In this document: piece after piece, positions 30,790-38,732 of the stretch | Numbering within the stretch: the stretch's first letter is position 1 | Layout of the letters: every line of letters begins with the position of its first letter | From: Armatimonadota bacterium | Lineage (GTDB): Bacteria; Armatimonadota; Fimbriimonadia; Fimbriimonadales; Fimbriimonadaceae | Assembly: GCA_020161505.1 (NCBI GenBank) | Contig: JAIUNY010000009.1 | Location: 1-64,000 of the forward strand | Reading direction: 5' to 3' | DNA: 64,000 bases | Notes under the pieces: generated by a model | Told to the model about the DNA's origin: nothing | Databases searched by the model: none | What the model saw: only the letters and a program-made list of their open reading frames with translations | Position numbers and translations under genes: made by a program

Positions 30790-31128
30790 TCAGCGGATCT
30801 TGCGTTTCGAGTGGGGGCCCTCGACTAAGTAAACCTGACCAGGTTTGAATTCGCCGAGTCGGGCTTCCACTATTGGAACGCAGGCCGATTGGTTGGCGAG
30901 AATGTTGGGATGGATGTCAAGGGCAAAGCTTCTTCCCTTCATGCTTTGTTGGTAGGGCATGTTCTTGTCGGCTGTAATGAACAACTCGAAGCCTGCCTCT
31001 TGCGCTTTGCCCAGCAACTCACCGTTTTTGGTGCCTTGCCAGCCCATTGTTTTGACATGATAAACGTCATGGGAGGGCATGAATTCTGGGAGTTCTTCGT
31101 CAGTGTTTTCGTCAACCAGAATCTTCAT
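30790..31128 (-). CDS. DUF5615 PIN-like toxin, module B
   Basis: A 112-residue protein of the DUF5615 PIN-like family: M-K-I-L-V-D-E-N-T-D at the start, G-W-Q-G-T-K-N-G-E-L-L-G-K-A and I-T-A-D-K-N-M-P-Y-Q-Q-S. Closest to module A within this window. ATG 31128 overlaps the antitoxin stop as ATGA. It is probably an RNase-type toxin. Base composition is somewhat AT-richer than ftsK and rodA on either side, in line with the idea that the module was inserted. Confidence 0.8.
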   Translation of the reverse strand: MKILVDENTDEELPEFMPSHDVYHVKTMGWQGTKNGELLGKAQEAGFELFITADKNMPYQQSMKGRSFALDIHPNILANQSACVPIVEARLGEFKPGQVYLVEGPHSKRKIR

Positions 31129-31367
31129 GAAGCGTATTCAAGCCCAATGGTCTTACGGCTTTCATGGCCAAGCCACTCCAACACGGCGGTGGCCTGTTCT
31201 CTTTGCACGCTGGAATATCCTCTGAGAAACTGATCAAGTGAGAATCCAGCCTCGACGTGGTCAAGGAAAGTTGCGACCAGAACGCGTGTCCCGATGAAGC
31301 ATGGCGTACCCCCTAGGATTTCGGGATCCATGGCGATGACACTTTGCAGTTCTTTGGGGATTGTCAC
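31125..31367 (-). CDS. DUF433 antitoxin, module B
   Basis: An 80-residue DUF433 protein starting at GTG 31367 (V-T-I-P-K-E-L-Q-S-V), which lines up exactly with the M-T-I-P-K-E-L-D-G-V start of module A. Later segments are D-P-E-I-L-G-G-T-P-C-F-I-G-T-R-V and L-D-H-V-E-A-G-F-S-L. TATAAT at 31389-31394 is a consensus -10 box, giving a leader of only about 14 bases. A TTG start seven codons upstream is possible. It should bind its toxin and repress its own promoter. Confidence 0.8.
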   Translation of the reverse strand: MTIPKELQSVIAMDPEILGGTPCFIGTRVLVATFLDHVEAGFSLDQFLRGYSSVQREQATAVLEWLGHESRKTIGLEYAS

Positions 31368-31394
31368 AGGTCGGCCTCTTCTGGACAAATTATA

Positions 31395-31568: not shown

Positions 31569-32684
31569 CTATTCGCACTGATCGAGCAATCCGACCGCCG
31601 CCATGCACATCCACAAGGCGGTGCCGCCCGCGCTCATGAAGGGCAGCCACAAGCCAATGACTAACCCAATGCCCAGAACCATCGACATATTGACGAGAAA
31701 GTGGAAAGCAAGGACAGCAAACAGACACGAGCCCGTCACGATTCCCATCACGGTTTTGGCCTGCCACACCCGCAGCCAAACTCGGTAGAAGAAGAAAGCA
31801 AACAGGCACAGCACCAGACTGGATCCCACCAGCCCGCCCTCTTCACCGATGACCGTGAAGATCAGGTCGTTTTGTTGCTCCGGAATCACGCCTGATTCCT
31901 TCTGATCGCCCTGGAAGAATCCTGCCCCCATCACGCCTCCGCTGCCAATCGCGAGAGTGCCCTGGTGGATTTGGTAGTCGTCGCCACGGATATCTTTCTT
32001 GCCGGTTTTCACCGCCGAGAGCTTGGTTTCAAAGCGTTTGAGCTGGTACTCGGGAATGAGCTTGAAAGTGAAGAGGAGTCCGCCGAGAACGGCAATGCCG
32101 AGGATGGTGGCGGGGAAGTATTTCCACGGCACGCCGATGTGGATCGCCCCCATGATCGCCATGAAGAGCAGAGAAAGCGTCGCTCCGGTGTGAGGTTGCA
32201 TGTAAACCAGCGCCAAGATCGGCGCGATGTGCCCCAGCGCCCCGAGCCACGTCCCCAGCTCCTTGATCCGATCTTCTCGATTGGCGAAATAGGCGGCGAG
32301 CGTCAGGGCGAGCAGAACTTTTGTAAGTTCGCTCGGTTGAAATTGCATGAATCCGAGATCCAGCGCGCGTTGTGTGATCCCTCGTCCACGCCCAATGACC
32401 AAGGTTGCAGCGAGCAGCAGGATGTTGATGATGTAGAGCGGCGTGGCGAGCACGCGAAAGGTTTCAAGCCGGATTCGGTTGAAGAAAAGGAACACGATCA
32501 ACCCGAGGGCGGCGAAGATGAGCTGACGGGTGAAAAAGTTCGTGTCTTGCCCGGCATCCAGGCTCGCCAAGGAGAAGAGACCGACCCCGATCAACCCCGC
32601 CGCGCTTGCGAGGAACCAGTAGTCGTGAGATCGTCCGCGGGGCCGCTCCACGACCATCGATTGGTCGGCAGCGGTCAAACTCAT
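31569..32684 (-). CDS. rodA: rod-shape/peptidoglycan polymerase RodA (SEDS family)
   Basis: A 371-residue SEDS protein with about ten membrane helices. Conserved segments are L-G-F-M-Q-F-Q-P-S-E-L-T-K (family signature), Q-P-H-T-G-A-T-L, D-Y-Q-I-H-Q-G-T-L-A-I-G-S-G-G, G-V-I-P-E-Q-Q-N-D-L-I-F-T-V-I-G-E-E and L-P-F-M-S-A-G-G-T-A-L-W. It polymerises lipid II glycan strands and needs a class B PBP partner, which is not here. The start overlaps the stop of the upstream lipoprotein gene (ATGA), so it is part of the operon beginning at 36659. Its last 16 codons are duplicated at 30595-30642. Confidence 0.93.
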   Translation of the reverse strand: MSLTAADQSMVVERPRGRSHDYWFLASAAGLIGVGLFSLASLDAGQDTNFFTRQLIFAALGLIVFLFFNRIRLETFRVLATPLYIINILLLAATLVIGRGRGITQRALDLGFMQFQPSELTKVLLALTLAAYFANREDRIKELGTWLGALGHIAPILALVYMQPHTGATLSLLFMAIMGAIHIGVPWKYFPATILGIAVLGGLLFTFKLIPEYQLKRFETKLSAVKTGKKDIRGDDYQIHQGTLAIGSGGVMGAGFFQGDQKESGVIPEQQNDLIFTVIGEEGGLVGSSLVLCLFAFFFYRVWLRVWQAKTVMGIVTGSCLFAVLAFHFLVNMSMVLGIGLVIGLWLPFMSAGGTALWMCMAAVGLLDQCE

Positions 32685-33370
32685 GGTGATTCAGGGGTCG
32701 CTGGATCGTCAACGCGAGGCTCTCGGGTGGAGCTTTGCCAGAACTCGCGGCGGATCAAGCCCTTCTCAGGTTGGAACCAAAACTTGAGATTGCGTTTGGT
32801 CGCGACCGCACCGGCGCTCGTCTTCACCTCCGCCGTCACGAGCAATGCGGGAAACTTCCCGGAAGCGAGGTTAAGGGCGTCGGATGAGGTGGAAATCGTG
32901 GCGGAGGCAGGGTAGACATTCACCCCGCTCTGAATCGTGCCGCTCCACTCCCAGGTATCTCCGACCTCCAGAGGATATCGAATCAGGCGAATCGGCGGAT
33001 CGTACGTCTCATGGGGCGCGCGGGCAATGCTGAAGCCTTCGTCACCAGAGAGGTAAACCTCGGTTTCCACCTCGACCGGGTCTCCCGATTCCTTCGCGGC
33101 ATCGGTGATCCATCTCAGCACAATTTTTTCACCGGATCGCTTGGCGTCCAGCACGACGGGGATTTGCGCCCCGGTCAGGATAACCGTCGCCTCTTTCGGC
33201 GGGAGTTCGCCAGGTTTGAGGTCATCTTGGGTCTGGAACGAACTGCTGATCGGGTCAACGGCCTCCGGCACGTCCGGGGCGTCCGTTCCAGAAGGAGAGA
33301 TCACAAGCTTTTTGTCGCAACCGATGAGCGCTAAGCTCAGTACCGCCACCACGAGGGCTCCCCACTTCAC
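32681..33370 (-). CDS. lipoprotein 4 of a paralogous set, next to RodA
   Basis: A 229-residue protein with a lipoprotein signal (V-K-W-G-A-L-V-V-A-V-L-S-L-A-L-I-G-C; lipobox L-I-G-C). The body is beta-rich with Y-P-L-E-V-G-D-T-W-E-W-S-G-T and ends with L-K-F-W-F-Q-P-E-K-G-L-I-R-R-E-F. The pattern W-F-x-P-x-x-G-L/I-V-R near the end recurs in the three genes upstream. GTG 33370 overlaps the previous stop (GTGA), and the stop overlaps rodA. A longer frame upstream to 33658 lies in the neighbouring gene and is rejected. Function unknown, probably envelope-linked. Confidence 0.72.
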   Translation of the reverse strand: MKWGALVVAVLSLALIGCDKKLVISPSGTDAPDVPEAVDPISSSFQTQDDLKPGELPPKEATVILTGAQIPVVLDAKRSGEKIVLRWITDAAKESGDPVEVETEVYLSGDEGFSIARAPHETYDPPIRLIRYPLEVGDTWEWSGTIQSGVNVYPASATISTSSDALNLASGKFPALLVTAEVKTSAGAVATKRNLKFWFQPEKGLIRREFWQSSTREPRVDDPATPESP

Positions 33371-33993
33371 CGAGCGGCCTCCCGGAACCGGGCGAGCTTG
33401 CGAACCTTTTGGTTCTTCTGGTTGCCAAATGATCCCACTTCTTTGAACTCGATCAGTCCGATTCCCTTGCCGTAGAGAGAGGTGTGGGTGGCGGTGATGG
33501 TTTGATCTTCCGAGTAGAAGATCTTCATGTCCATCACGACTTCGATCACAGGGACTTTGCGACCGACCACCTCTCGGGTTCCCAGAGGCTTCAATCGCGC
33601 CTTGATCTCCGCCGGAGCCTCGCCCGTACCGACGATTACGCCGCCGGTGAACTCCCACTCGTGCGCCTTCGTGGGGTCGCCTTGGAGAATGGTGAACGGC
33701 AGCGGCAGCAGGGCCGTCTCCGTCATTCCCGCGAAGCCGATCTGATCTTCGGTGACTTCGTAAAAACTCCGCGAGGCAACTGAGTTCACGCCTCTGCTCT
33801 CAATGACCGAGTAGGTCACGCCATCCAACGACACAGGCTCGAGGACGGTGTCGGAATCGGTCGAGAACGACTTCCGCCCGTTGACTTCCGCGTTGCTTTG
33901 ATACACCCAGGTGGTGCCGGGCTTCACAGGGAAATAGTCCGAAACCGTTTCCGGTTCGGACATCAGCAACAGGGCGAGGGTGGGAACGATCAT
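33367..33993 (-). CDS. secreted protein 3 of the paralogous set
   Basis: A 208-residue protein with a short signal peptide (MIVPTLALLLMSEPETVS) and no lipobox Cys. After it, D-Y-F-P-V-K-P-G-T-T-W-V-Y-Q is a motif typical of a widespread secreted beta-sandwich family (TapB/DUF3108-like in style). The end has L-Y-G-K-G-I-G-L-I-E-F-K-E, matching the W-x-x-x-G-x-G-x-V element of the paralogues. It overlaps the next gene by four bases and lies 18 bases after the previous one. Function unknown. Confidence 0.7.
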   Translation of the reverse strand: MIVPTLALLLMSEPETVSDYFPVKPGTTWVYQSNAEVNGRKSFSTDSDTVLEPVSLDGVTYSVIESRGVNSVASRSFYEVTEDQIGFAGMTETALLPLPFTILQGDPTKAHEWEFTGGVIVGTGEAPAEIKARLKPLGTREVVGRKVPVIEVVMDMKIFYSEDQTITATHTSLYGKGIGLIEFKEVGSFGNQKNQKVRKLARFREAAR

Positions 33994-34011
33994 ACGATCT
34001 CCGCGAGGAAA

Positions 34012-34734
34012 TTAACCTCGCTTGATGAGCGTGACCGAATAAGACGTGGGTTTGCCGTCAGCGTCTTTGCTGGTCACGGTGAGCTTCACCGTTCCTACGC
34101 CAGAGGCGTACCAGCTAGTGCCCGTGACTGGACTTTTCTTATCCCCGGAGGTGAGTTCGCCGCTCATCGTGACGACGAGGCAATCGAAGTCACCCGCTTT
34201 GGTCGTGAGCTTCTCTTGTTTGGTCACCTTTTGGGTGGCCTTGATCGAGACCTTTTCGCCCGTCGGGCCGGTGAACTGCGCGGAGACCGGCCACGAATCG
34301 CCAACCTTCGGATCCTTGGGGAGCGAAAGAACTGCCGGATCGACCGTATTCTCTCCGCTCTTCACCAAGTAGATGCCGTCTTCGCGCACCTCCAGAGTCT
34401 CGTTGCCGAGATCACTCAGGCCAGCGCTTCGCTCGATCGTGAAGGTGGCTTTGCCATCCACCATTCCCGCGAACACGGCCTTTTGGGCGCCTTCGAGCTT
34501 CACGCCGTTGCGGTCGAGTTCGTAGGTTTCTTCGGCGGTGCTATCCAGGCCGTAGAACTTAAATCCACCGTGCTTCAGGTTCTCCGGGATCTCGCTCGGA
34601 TCCGGAGCCTTCGTCGCTTGCTCCTCTGGTTTGGTCTCCGCATCCTTCGGAGCTTCGGTCGGTTTGGGGCCGCAACCCATCAGCAGGGCGGCACTCAGGA
34701 GGGCAAACCAGGGAGCGAGCGTACGGACTTTCAT
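34012..34734 (-). CDS. lipoprotein 2 of the paralogous set
   Basis: A 240-residue lipoprotein: signal M-K-V-R-T-L-A-P-W-F-A-L-L-S-A-A-L-L-M-G-C, then a low-complexity linker rich in Pro, Lys and Glu (residues 24-50). The beta-rich domain contains P-K-V-G-D-S-W-P-V and T-K-A-G-D-F-D-C-L-V-V-T and ends with T-S-W-Y-A-S-G-V-G-T-V-K-L. The last element is the shared signature of the four genes. Probably anchored to a membrane, facing the periplasm. Role unknown. Confidence 0.72.
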   Translation of the reverse strand: MKVRTLAPWFALLSAALLMGCGPKPTEAPKDAETKPEEQATKAPDPSEIPENLKHGGFKFYGLDSTAEETYELDRNGVKLEGAQKAVFAGMVDGKATFTIERSAGLSDLGNETLEVREDGIYLVKSGENTVDPAVLSLPKDPKVGDSWPVSAQFTGPTGEKVSIKATQKVTKQEKLTTKAGDFDCLVVTMSGELTSGDKKSPVTGTSWYASGVGTVKLTVTSKDADGKPTSYSVTLIKRG

Positions 34735-34751
34735 GGATCGTTTCTACTTCC

Positions 34752-35489
34752 TTACTTCCCAGAGAAGTTCTTCAATTTCAGGATCAGACTGGTGTTGGCA
34801 CCGTCGTTCCGTTGAATTTGCTGGGTAACTCGGACGATACCGTATTTCGGGGCAAACCAAGTGGTCGAGCGGACTCGGTAGATGCTCTTGCCCGCCTGAT
34901 ATCCACTGACGCTGGTCACCGCAACCGCCTCGATTTTGCCCAGCTCGGTGTCGATGACTTCGACGCCTCGGACGCGGCTGACTGCTTCAAGCTTTCCGCT
35001 CGTCGGTTCGCCGGTGGCCACGGACGTGTAGGGTCCAGTGCCAGCGAACTTGAACTCCTTGAACTCCATATCCTTCTTGATCGGGAAGGGCAGAACGCTC
35101 TGGGGAGGATTGAATGCGACCCCGTTGCGGGCAGAGGTTTGGGTGATGCCCTTGGCATCCGCCCGGTAGGTCGAGACATCGGTGACCTTGCGATTCTGCA
35201 GAACCTCCATCGTGATGGAAGTCGCGTCGCCATTCTTCACCACCTTGCTGTAGCGCAGAACGAATTCTTGAGAGTTGTTGCCTTCGGTCACAAATGTCCC
35301 TTGCGCACCCGAGGTCGTAGGGAAGAAGTCGGCAGGCTGCAGCTTGGCCAAGTCGCCGATCTCAACGATCTTCGCCGACTTGGTGCTCGATTTGGCGGTA
35401 GCTTCATCTTTATTGCAACCGGTGACAAAAACGAGCGAACTTGCGAGGGCAACGGTGGTCACGAAAGCCAGAGGGCGGGGAAATTTCAT
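34752..35489 (-). CDS. lipoprotein 1 of the paralogous set
   Basis: A 245-residue lipoprotein starting at ATG 35489 (M-K-F-P-R-P-L-A-F-V-T-T-V-A-L-A-S-S-L-V, lipobox V-T-G-C). The body has D-F-F-P-T-T-S-G-A-Q-G-T-F, similar to D-Y-F-P-V-K-P-G-T-T-W-V in the third copy, and E-A-V-A-V-T-S-V-S-G-Y followed by T-T-W-F-A-P-K-Y-G-I-V-R-V. It lies 33 bases after the SecD-head-like gene and 17 bases before the next copy. Function unknown. Confidence 0.72.
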   Translation of the reverse strand: MKFPRPLAFVTTVALASSLVFVTGCNKDEATAKSSTKSAKIVEIGDLAKLQPADFFPTTSGAQGTFVTEGNNSQEFVLRYSKVVKNGDATSITMEVLQNRKVTDVSTYRADAKGITQTSARNGVAFNPPQSVLPFPIKKDMEFKEFKFAGTGPYTSVATGEPTSGKLEAVSRVRGVEVIDTELGKIEAVAVTSVSGYQAGKSIYRVRSTTWFAPKYGIVRVTQQIQRNDGANTSLILKLKNFSGK

Positions 35490-35522
35490 AGGGTGTGTGC
35501 TCCGATTGGGTTCCAAACTGAT

Positions 35523-36659
35523 CTAATCACTTGAAGAAGCAGGTTTTGTGCCTGCAACCTCTGAAATGGCCTTAACAGCTTCTTCGACAAGGGTTTTGTC
35601 GCGCAATCCGCTGATCGAGACCTCGCTCTGGGCAAGTTCGGTCGAGATACGCGGTGCGGCGATCGCAATTCCATCGACGACGACTAAGAGCGCAAATCCC
35701 TTGGTGTTGCGGCTGTATTTCCACATCCGCTTCCGCCCTTCGTCGGTCAGACCGATTTGAAGCGAATAGAGTTCTTTCTCTTTGTCGTCCTTGTAACTGC
35801 GATAACTTGCCTTCGTCAGCATGCTGTCGTTGACCAAGACTTCTGCTCCCAGCAAGATTTGTTCCGGCTTACTGGCGAGGGACTTTTGCCTGTTCTCCGA
35901 AATGATCTGCTCGATCGCGGCTTTCACATTTTCCTTGCTCGTCTCGCCCCGACTGATCTTCATCGCCAACTCTTGATAGTTGCCCACGATGAACTGCTGG
36001 GTCGGCTGGAACTTCTTTTCGATGACTTCGGAAACCTGCTTGGCGAAAGCAGGCTGGAAGATCTGCCTCACGCGGGCGGTGATTGTTTTGGTTTCACCCT
36101 CGATAGGCACCTGCAAGGGAACCGGGAAGTCGATGACAATTCCGTTCAGCAGGCTCCTCAACCGGACTTCCGGGAGCGGTGTGCCATCGAGTTCCACATT
36201 CAAATCTTCGCGCAGCTTTTGAGAGAGTGCGGGGTCGCCGGCAAGGGCCTTCTGCAAATCCTCGGATGTCCACACCGTCAGATCGGGCGTGATCTGGCTG
36301 TCGTCGATCCGGTTGAGCCGGGTGACGAGCACGCCGAGTGCTTTCGCGTCGCCTTGGAGCGATTCGAACAGCTCCTTCACGGGGATTCGGCGCGCGTCTT
36401 CGCCTTCTTCTTGACTGCTGGCCCGTTGATTGCCGCCGCTGGACTCATTGACCTGCACCAGTTGGGCAACCGCATTCGCCACCTGGACTCGGAACCCTGC
36501 ATCGGTGTTCATCGCCACCATCGTCACGCGGCCCGGTTGGATCGGCGCTGGGTTGAAGTTGCGCACCTGCATTTCGCCCCAACCCCAGTACCCACCGTAG
36601 AGGGCACCGCCAACGGCAAGCGCGATCAGGCTTGCTTTGAAAGAAGCGTTGAGTTTCAT
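35523..36659 (-). CDS. membrane-anchored protein with a SecD-head-like C-terminal domain
   Basis: A 378-residue protein: one N-terminal membrane helix (A-S-L-I-A-L-A-V-G-G-A-L-Y-G-G-Y-W-G-W) and a long extracytoplasmic region. Residues about 275-365 resemble the SecD P1 head: L-Q-I-G-L-T-D-E-G-R-K-R-M, then F-A-L-L-V-V-V-D-G-I-A-I-A-A-P-R-I, then S-I-S-G-L-R and a closing helix. SecD reads S-F-T-L-T-x-E-G, I-V-L-D-G-x-V-x-S-A-P, I-x-G. The six-helix translocon part of SecD is absent. It is the first gene of the operon that includes four lipoprotein-like genes and rodA. A frame reading upstream to 36932 is antisense to moxR and rejected. Confidence 0.7.
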   Translation of the reverse strand: MKLNASFKASLIALAVGGALYGGYWGWGEMQVRNFNPAPIQPGRVTMVAMNTDAGFRVQVANAVAQLVQVNESSGGNQRASSQEEGEDARRIPVKELFESLQGDAKALGVLVTRLNRIDDSQITPDLTVWTSEDLQKALAGDPALSQKLREDLNVELDGTPLPEVRLRSLLNGIVIDFPVPLQVPIEGETKTITARVRQIFQPAFAKQVSEVIEKKFQPTQQFIVGNYQELAMKISRGETSKENVKAAIEQIISENRQKSLASKPEQILLGAEVLVNDSMLTKASYRSYKDDKEKELYSLQIGLTDEGRKRMWKYSRNTKGFALLVVVDGIAIAAPRISTELAQSEVSISGLRDKTLVEEAVKAISEVAGTKPASSSD

Positions 36660-36789: not shown

Positions 36790-37737
36790 ATGTCGGTGGC
36801 AGAAGTCGCGGCCCGCGTTGCGCAAGAAGTCGGGAAAGCGGTGGTAGGGCAAAACAAGGCGGTAGAGCAATCGTTCATCGCCCTGCTTGCCGATGGACAC
36901 GTTTTGTTGCAGGGCGTCCCTGGCCTGGGCAAAACCCTCCTCGTCCGGACTCTCGCTCAGGTGATGCAACTCGAGTTCAAACGCATCCAGTTCACCCCCG
37001 ACCTGATGCCGAGCGATGTGACGGGAACCAACATTTTCGATCCCCGAACCGCCGAGTTTTCCCTCCGTAAGGGCCCGATTTTCACTTCGGTGCTCCTGGC
37101 CGACGAAATCAACCGCACCCCGCCGAAAACCCAGGCCTCTCTGCTCGAAGCCATGGAAGAGCGGCAAACCACAATTGACGGCGTCCGCTACCCGCTGCCG
37201 TCGCCCTTTATTGTTTTTGCTACGCAGAACCCGATTGAATACGAGGGAACCTATCCTCTCCCAGAAGCCCAGCAAGACCGGTTTCTTTTCAAAGTCCTTC
37301 TCGACTATCCCGCCGAGAATCAGGAAGTTGATGTGTTGCGACGGTTCCACGAAGGCTTCCGCGCAAACCGACTCGACGAGGCCCAAATCGTGCCTGTGCT
37401 GACCGCGGAATTGCTGCACGAACTGAGAAAGGAAGTTGCCGCGATCACGATGGAGGACAAGATTTTCCTCTACATCCAACAGATTGTCGGGGCGACCCGT
37501 CGGAGCAGCGATCTTCTCGTCGGAGGCAGTCCGCGCGCGGGCCTCGCCCTGGTCGCCACCTCAAAGGCTTTGGCGGCGATCCGTGGGCGGACTTTTGTCA
37601 TCCCCGATGACGTCAAGGAACTCGCCATGCCGGTGCTCCGGCACAGAGTCATCATGCGGCCCGAGGCGGAAATCGAGGGCTACAGCGTGGATCAAGTGCT
37701 CCAACGGCTCCTGGATGTGCAAACCGTTCCGCGATGA
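36790..37737 (+). CDS. MoxR-family AAA+ ATPase
   Basis: A protein of about 315 residues. Walker A is L-L-Q-G-V-P-G-L-G-K-T-L, Walker B is L-L-A-D-E-I-N-R-T-P-P-K-T-Q, sensor 1 is F-A-T-Q-N-P-I-E-Y-E-G-T-Y-P-L-P-E-A-Q-Q-D, and the lid domain is at the C-terminus (S-P-R-A-G-L-A-L). MoxR ATPases act as chaperones that mature enzyme or envelope complexes, often with a DUF58 and a VWA protein, neither of which is present here. ATG 36790 (M-S-V-A-E-V) is chosen, and ATG 36751 is an alternative. It diverges from the SecD-head-like gene. Confidence 0.9.
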   Translation: MSVAEVAARVAQEVGKAVVGQNKAVEQSFIALLADGHVLLQGVPGLGKTLLVRTLAQVMQLEFKRIQFTPDLMPSDVTGTNIFDPRTAEFSLRKGPIFTSVLLADEINRTPPKTQASLLEAMEERQTTIDGVRYPLPSPFIVFATQNPIEYEGTYPLPEAQQDRFLFKVLLDYPAENQEVDVLRRFHEGFRANRLDEAQIVPVLTAELLHELRKEVAAITMEDKIFLYIQQIVGATRRSSDLLVGGSPRAGLALVATSKALAAIRGRTFVIPDDVKELAMPVLRHRVIMRPEAEIEGYSVDQVLQRLLDVQTVPR

Positions 37738-38732
37738 AGATTCTCCTCCTGCGCAGGCAACGGCTGGGGGGAACCGCGACGCTCAGCAACCTCATTCAGC
37801 AGACGCTGCCTGAGTTTGGACTTTCGGTCGATATCCTGGATGCCGACGACTGGATCCCGGATCGTACTGGCGGCAAAACGGATAAAGAGGTCTCGAAGAA
37901 GCTCCGCGAAGTCGCCAAAGGCTATCACCTGGTTCACGCCTTCGGCTACCGCTGCGCCTGGGCGTGCAGCGTTGCTTTCGGACTCAAGGCACCCTGGATC
38001 TACACCGCTCACGACATGCCTCGCACGACCATCCCGGTCTTCATCGAGAAGCTGGGCGCGGCTCGAACCGGGATCTGCAGTTCCCGGGCGGTGAAGCGAG
38101 CCTTGCAAGAAGGCGACGCCACGAACCTCGATGTGATCCTGCCTGGCACCCCGACGGTTGAATCGGAAATCGGGGCCGAAGCCATGAAGCAAGCCAAGGA
38201 AGCCCTCGGATTCGATCCCGAAGGGCGCCTTGTCCTCGGTTTGGGGCGTCTGGTGATGGATCATGGATTCGATGCCTTGGCCAATGCCGCTCAGAACCTG
38301 ACGGCTGATGTGCCCGGACTGCGTGTGGTCATCGCCGGAGAAGGGCCAGAAGCGGAGTCACTTCGCCAGCCAGGCTGCGAAGTCGTCGAGGGGAAAGTGG
38401 ATGCTCAGCAGTGGCTCACCGCCGCCGACGTGGTGGTCGTGCCTCATCGACGATGTGGATTCAGCATGGTGGCGGCTGAGGCGATGGCGCTTGGGAAACC
38501 AGTCCTCGCCCGGGAGACCGGAGGCCTCGCTGAGATGGGCGTCCGAGACGTGAGTGTTGACCTCTTTGAAGCAGACGAAGATCTCCCCTACGCCGTCATG
38601 GATCTCCTCGGATCCTCGATTCTGAGAGAGTCGCTGGGACTTGCCGCCCGGGCGCGGGCATACGAGCGCTTTTCGCTCAAAGACAGTGTGCGCGCCTATT
38701 CCGAGCTCTATCACGACCTCGGGATACGTTGA
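37734..38732 (+). CDS. glycosyltransferase family 4-like protein
   Basis: A 332-residue GT-B fold protein that overlaps the moxR stop by ATGA. The N-terminal domain binds the acceptor (H-L-V-H-A-F-G-Y-R-C-A, Y-T-A-H-D-M-P). The C-terminal donor domain has L-V-L-G-L-G-R-L-V-M-D-H-G-F and A-A-D-V-V-V-V-P-H, then G-F-S-M-V-A-A-E-A-M-A-L-G-K-P-V-L-A, the family E-x7-E region in slightly altered form. It would transfer a hexose from a nucleotide sugar to a glycan. Its pairing with MoxR is unusual. The substrate is not readable. Confidence 0.85.
   Translation: MKILLLRRQRLGGTATLSNLIQQTLPEFGLSVDILDADDWIPDRTGGKTDKEVSKKLREVAKGYHLVHAFGYRCAWACSVAFGLKAPWIYTAHDMPRTTIPVFIEKLGAARTGICSSRAVKRALQEGDATNLDVILPGTPTVESEIGAEAMKQAKEALGFDPEGRLVLGLGRLVMDHGFDALANAAQNLTADVPGLRVVIAGEGPEAESLRQPGCEVVEGKVDAQQWLTAADVVVVPHRRCGFSMVAAEAMALGKPVLARETGGLAEMGVRDVSVDLFEADEDLPYAVMDLLGSSILRESLGLAARARAYERFSLKDSVRAYSELYHDLGIR

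Follow-up and report, generated by a model that had tools for sequence, protein, structure and literature searches.

A conserved Fimbriimonadales operon that encodes an anchored SecD-type head and four secreted half-barrel paralogs together with RodA

Background

Bacteria of the order Fimbriimonadales (phylum Armatimonadota) are little-studied inhabitants of soil and water. Here we examine a 64,000-nucleotide stretch from a member of the family Fimbriimonadaceae (assembly GCA_020161505.1, contig JAIUNY010000009.1, positions 1 to 64,000; hereafter "the window"), and within it an operon of six genes, which encode a membrane-anchored protein with a SecD-type head (A), four related secreted proteins (B to E) and RodA. 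All the parts come from known families; the combination appears to be undescribed, and no description of the operon was found in the open-access literature searched (most subscription journals lie outside that scope).

Several described systems resemble parts of this operon. The rodA gene also adjoins a lipoprotein gene in the mrdA-mrdB-rlpA cluster of Escherichia coli, although RlpA belongs to a different family and that cluster has neither a SecD head nor a quartet of related proteins. RodA of the window is of the same family as RodA of the Rod complex, with invariant catalytic-loop residues, yet it is encoded with A to E and not beside penicillin-binding protein 2 (PBP2) or mreBCD. A shares with SecD and SecDF the fold of the P1 head (PF22599; structures 3aqo and 5yhf) and, like them, bears this head on the periplasmic face of its inner-membrane anchor; unlike SecDF, it has one anchor helix, no RND-type membrane domain and no SecF, and a large helical insertion interrupts its head. 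B to E are predicted to have the fold of the DUF3108, DUF3108_like and YmcC proteins (PF11306 and PF21347; structures 3fzx, 4fvs and 2in5), with the same C-terminal W-x5-G-x-[VI] region and, for the most part, the same lipoprotein character, but they are four diverged tandem paralogs behind a SecD-head protein, and only C passes a Pfam cut-off. The E. coli group 4 capsule set gfcBCD likewise consists of overlapping genes, and its YmcC-fold lipoprotein binds a soluble periplasmic partner (PMC8592465). In contrast to gfcBCD, no GfcC, GfcD or outer-membrane polysaccharide export (OPX)-type partner is recognised here, and the links are instead to RodA, DacB and SurA-like genes.

The reading that we prefer, tentatively and with a probability of about 0.4, is that A anchors a periplasmic complex of ligand-binding lipoproteins that serves envelope assembly and is co-expressed with peptidoglycan enzymes. 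In a phylum that has received little study, the operon points to an unrecognised link between the growth of the wall and the handling of envelope proteins or lipids, and it offers defined targets, namely the always-kept core of A, C and RodA and the domain insertion that accompanies the lipoprotein quartet.

Results and discussion

A conserved six-gene operon

A sequence-only reading of the window had proposed six linked genes at 31569-36659, and all six were found there, as follows:

35523-36659, minus strand: gene A, anchored SecDF P1-head protein (PF22599, structure model)
34752-35489, minus strand: gene B, lipoprotein, modelled as a YmcC/DUF3108-type beta half-barrel (model, lipobox)
34012-34734, minus strand: gene C, lipoprotein, DUF3108_like (PF21347)
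33367-33993, minus strand: gene D, secreted paralog without a lipobox (hhalign to B, C and E)
32681-33370, minus strand: gene E, lipoprotein paralog whose GTG start overlaps the stop of D (hhalign, tree clade)
31569-32684, minus strand: gene for a RodA-type SEDS protein (PF01098, TIGR02210)

The gaps at the successive junctions from A to RodA are 33, 17, 18, -4 and -4 bp, so the several ATGA/GTGA overlaps that had been claimed come down to two of the five junctions, GTGA at D/E and ATGA at E/RodA.

Loss of the gene order in relatives had been set beforehand as part of the refuting test, and the order is conserved. In 74/77 genomes of the window's family that have both A and RodA, the two genes share a strand, with A first and RodA within 6 kb of it, and in the three exceptions they are on different contigs of fragmented assemblies. 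A was present at high score in 20/20 sampled genomes of this family; in all 19 besides that of the window the genes run A-(B)-C-(D)-(E)-RodA, as they do also in about 40 named Fimbriimonadia records. Among 45 RodA-linked loci inspected (L036 and L065 are one contig counted twice), none lacked A, C or RodA, while B and E were present in 39/45 each, and D, the gene most often lost, in 33/45. The order persists over some ten genera, among which protein identities fall as low as 20-36%, but the flanking genes are far less stable (FtsK is downstream in 10, MoxR upstream in 11 and a glycosyltransferase present in 6 of the 20 genomes compared), and it therefore does not merely reflect recent shared descent of the whole region. 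This conservation rules out a chance cluster. Rate covariation across 17 genomes gave r 0.62 for A and C, with the unrelated SecDF equally strong (C-SecDF 0.69) and the positive control, RodA-MreC, failing at 0.11, so that this measure does not discriminate among the readings discussed below.

A complete Fimbriimonadia operon is also present in a record titled Methanoregulaceae archaeon (L074:9004-13921), a contig that is probably mis-binned or mislabelled.

The last gene encodes a SEDS protein, as had been proposed, which scores 212 bits against PF01098, over the cut-off, and for which the best NCBIfam model is TIGR02210 (rodA_shape; E-value 1.4e-72), albeit with a score of 244.8 that falls below that model's own cut-off of 336.7. 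Residues P268 and D273 are invariant in 20/20 and are placed in the expected SEDS catalytic loop, the catalytic role of which we take as established. The genome holds two SEDS genes, and the one in the window is the only non-FtsW SEDS match. Since the other (C23:66793) has a PBP_dimer gene at a distance of about 6.4 kb, the arrangement expected of FtsW and FtsI, the window gene is most likely the elongasome RodA. It would then be separated from the genes that usually accompany it: neither MreC nor the second PBP_dimer gene shares a contig with RodA, and in the genomes compared MreC and PBP2 are either on a different contig or hundreds of kb distant.

A SecD head on a single anchor

The first protein had been described as a SecD P1-like fold on one anchor helix without the translocon, and Pfam, the structure model and the match to SecDF structure 3aqo_C agree on this. 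A matches PF22599 (SecDF_P1_head) with an E-value of 1.2e-8 and 35.3 bits (cut-off 27), as do 18 of 20 orthologs from the window's family at E <= 0.01. In the model, which has a predicted local distance difference test (pLDDT) score of 83, a single N-terminal helix (residues 5-33) is followed by a P1 head in two parts, with strands at about 44-69 and 272-370, which are split by a mostly helical insertion of about 160-200 residues. A fold search with this model matched the head to 3aqo_C with Z 9.8 and a root-mean-square deviation of 2.5 A over 108 residues; the insertion had no solved-structure match of its own in that search, which used the whole A model only. With its one modelled helix, A has no RND-type transmembrane domain with a proton pathway, and against TIGR01129 it reaches only 29 bits (cut-off 244). 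A complete, separate SecDF (open frame of 854 amino acids) is encoded elsewhere in the genome, which makes A an extra protein. A degraded SecD was considered and is ruled out by the conservation of A as a family and by the presence of this full SecDF.

Four paralogs of one half-barrel family

B to E are mutually homologous by profile comparison, with hhalign E-values of 4e-18 (B-C), 1e-16 (B-D), 4e-16 (B-E), 4e-12 (C-E), 1e-10 (D-E) and 6e-9 (C-D). The model of B (pLDDT 86.6) is a twelve-strand half-barrel of the YmcC/DUF3108 type, a fold that C, D and E are predicted to share through their homology to B. Matches in a profile search of Protein Data Bank sequences were weak and a fold search was required; in the latter, B matched 3fzx (Z 14.6) and 4fvs (Z 14.2) and then, after a gap, a Brucella DUF1849 protein (Z 9.1) and E. 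coli YmcC (2in5, Z 8.9), with LolA, RseB/MucB and LmcA among the matches at Z 6-7. C matches PF21347 (DUF3108_like) over the cut-off (E-value 1.7e-10, 41.5 bits; 18/20 members match), B and E match DUF3108 models weakly and below the Pfam cut-off, and the Pfam search gave no match for D.

The reading from sequence had described four related proteins, three of them with lipoboxes, and both points hold: the lipoboxes are those of B, C and E, supported by eye and by conservation of the cysteine, which in B is invariant in 18/18. It had also given all four a common W-x-x-x-x-G-x-V ending. The motif is there in B, C and E, but as W-x5-G-x-[VI], i.e. with a spacing of five residues and not four, and D, which has no lipobox, has Y in place of the W. 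In a tree of the paralogs C (support 99), E (98) and B (85) each form one clade across the window's family (f1) and a sister family (f38), as does D with the exception of the row from family f40; the duplications are older than the split of the two families.

A half-barrel of this kind fits the carriage of a ligand, sensing and scaffolding alike, and it does not single out the delivery or testing of lipoproteins that had been suggested for the set. One could envisage a carrier path for lipids or glycolipids across the periplasm, in which half-barrels like LmcA, LppX or LolA act in series on, for example, undecaprenyl-linked or outer-membrane lipids. Four tandem paralogs, three membrane-tethered and one soluble, would fit such a path, as would LolA and the lipid-binding LmcA among the fold neighbours at Z 6-7 and the neighbouring glycosyltransferase gene; we nevertheless consider it unlikely, given that an ABC transporter and an outer-membrane component are absent from the module and that the Z-scores for the LolA and LmcA carriers are low. 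That the genes form a GfcB/YmcC-like accessory module for polysaccharide export, which merely shares a promoter with RodA, seems very improbable to us. The solved folds nearest to B do include YmcC (GfcB), a glycosyltransferase often adjoins, and the gfcBCD genes overlap and have interacting products (PMC8592465), but 3fzx and 4fvs are clearly nearer to B than YmcC is, and neither the module nor the recurrent neighbours identified include a recognised OPX, Wza-like or GfcC/GfcD-like gene.

A fifth DUF3108-like lipoprotein is encoded directly downstream of a UvrD/PcrA-type helicase gene (L137:8271-9128, on contig C22 of genome G000). Related genes also come after uvrD in two further genomes of the genus and in f40, the latter with additional paralogs in tandem.

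The core without RodA, and RodA without the core

In sister family f38, A-B-C-D-E is intact as a five-gene block. Of the seven genomes of that family with a recognised A gene, six have RodA on a different contig, and in the seventh (G151) it lies 6.5 kb from A with several genes between; the core is followed instead by MoxR, a SurA-like PPIC isomerase and/or DacB (an S13 D-Ala-D-Ala carboxypeptidase). Family f40 has A, B, D and E, and RodA is not nearby, with the proviso that in f38 and f40 the fragmentation of some assemblies can hide longer-range linkage. None of A to E was near RodA in the 14 loci examined from other classes of Armatimonadota, and RodA occurs without the quartet in family f39, in these other classes and in two genomes of the window's own family, G208 and G209. 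RodA is thus a non-obligate partner of A to E.

These observations bear on the suggestion that the operon is an undescribed envelope module that delivers or tests lipoproteins for the elongasome. A conserved envelope module it is, but a dedicated elongasome role finds no support, with the A-E core away from RodA in sister families and RodA kept without it in G208 and G209. A specific form of the idea is that A to E are accessory subunits or regulators dedicated to RodA, A contacting RodA in the membrane and the half-barrels gating or recruiting the Rod complex. This would accord with RodA being the last operon gene in 74/77 genomes, often with 4-bp overlaps, with the remoteness of MreC and PBP2, and with DacB, another peptidoglycan enzyme, lying beside the core in the sister family. 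We hold it to be improbable, as the core or A is unlinked to RodA in f38 (save for the loose 6.5-kb link in G151) and f40, and RodA does without the quartet in the genomes named above, two of which keep MreC and PBP2. Quite unlikely, in our estimation, is a more elaborate version, in which A to E would form a new Rod accessory complex whose repurposed SecD head, docking insertion and four half-barrels license or feed RodA depending on how envelope assembly stands, thereby coupling outer-envelope and wall growth.

The same comparison could be taken to mean that the genes are conserved in co-transcription without any common function. Partner genes do differ between families, as such hitch-hiking would have it, but the A-B-C-D-E order outlasts deep divergence and the flanking genes do not, and we regard this explanation as having very little likelihood.

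In several f38 genomes (e.g. L122:3270-5268 and L123:12755-14759) genes for a LON substrate-binding-domain protein and a PhoPQ_related protein (PF10142) precede A.

The insertion in A and the quartet

A is short (about 245-295 residues) in families f39 and f41, where no B-E genes adjoin it, and short forms are found in other classes too, with the quartet not nearby. Segments 4-102 and 265-346 of the profile are directly adjacent in A of f39, which means that the insertion of about 160 residues is missing there, and A of f41 lacks a comparable stretch. Insertion and quartet thus co-occur (f1, f38 and f40) and are both missing in f39, f41 and the other classes; the insertion probably arose together with the quartet, and their joint occurrence suggests that the insertion docks it.

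The neighbour of the gene for this short anchored SecD head in f39 is mqnD-like, the two genes overlapping or directly adjoining (L138:6516-8161, L140:7396-8960, L141:6876-8461 and L144:7145-8721).

A possible role in envelope assembly

Our preferred reading, the A-anchored complex, draws on the folds and on what has been published on SecD and GfcB. It draws also on the neighbours in two families, which are of two kinds, namely enzymes that act on peptidoglycan and folding factors of the periplasm. In E. coli the periplasmic P1 domain of SecD takes part in contacting the BAM complex (PMC7695460). GfcB, for its part, binds GfcC with an affinity of about 0.1 uM (PMC8592465), so that both folds are known as protein-docking modules. 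A would hold an assembly of A to E at the inner membrane, with its P1 head as the docking or client-contacting part and its insertion as the likely platform for B to E. The membrane-tethered B, C and E and the soluble D would bind a hydrophobic or unfolded envelope ligand, as LolA/LolB, RseB or GfcB relatives do, and the assembly may help envelope components to mature or to move through the periplasm. Co-expression with RodA here, and with DacB, a SurA-like isomerase and MoxR in the sister family, could keep wall growth and envelope assembly in pace. The data show the operon itself, its homologies, folds, conservation and neighbours; from these we infer the formation of the complex, its ligand and its functional link to wall growth.

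Several points weigh against this proposal. Fold likeness does not show function, and the LolA and RseB matches are at the Z level of common arrangements. B, D and E are each missing from part of the genomes, a pattern that sits uneasily with a rigid complex, and the reduced 1.5-Mb genomes G208 and G209 keep RodA, MreC and PBP2 and have no match to A. Finally, the correlation between insertion and quartet may reflect a single evolutionary event.

Neighbouring genes in the window

Upstream of the operon, two genes lie on the opposite strand:

36790-37737, plus strand: MoxR-type AAA+ ATPase, divergent neighbour of A (PF07726, E-value 1.3e-64)
37734-38732, plus strand: group 1/4 glycosyltransferase, after MoxR (PF13692, E-value 2.1e-18)

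The MoxR gene recurs beside A-E in both the window's family and f38. On the other side, between RodA and FtsK (30790-31388, minus strand), an overlapping pair of genes encodes an antitoxin-like DUF433 protein and a toxin-like DUF5615/PIN-like protein, the match of the latter being just below the Pfam cut-off.

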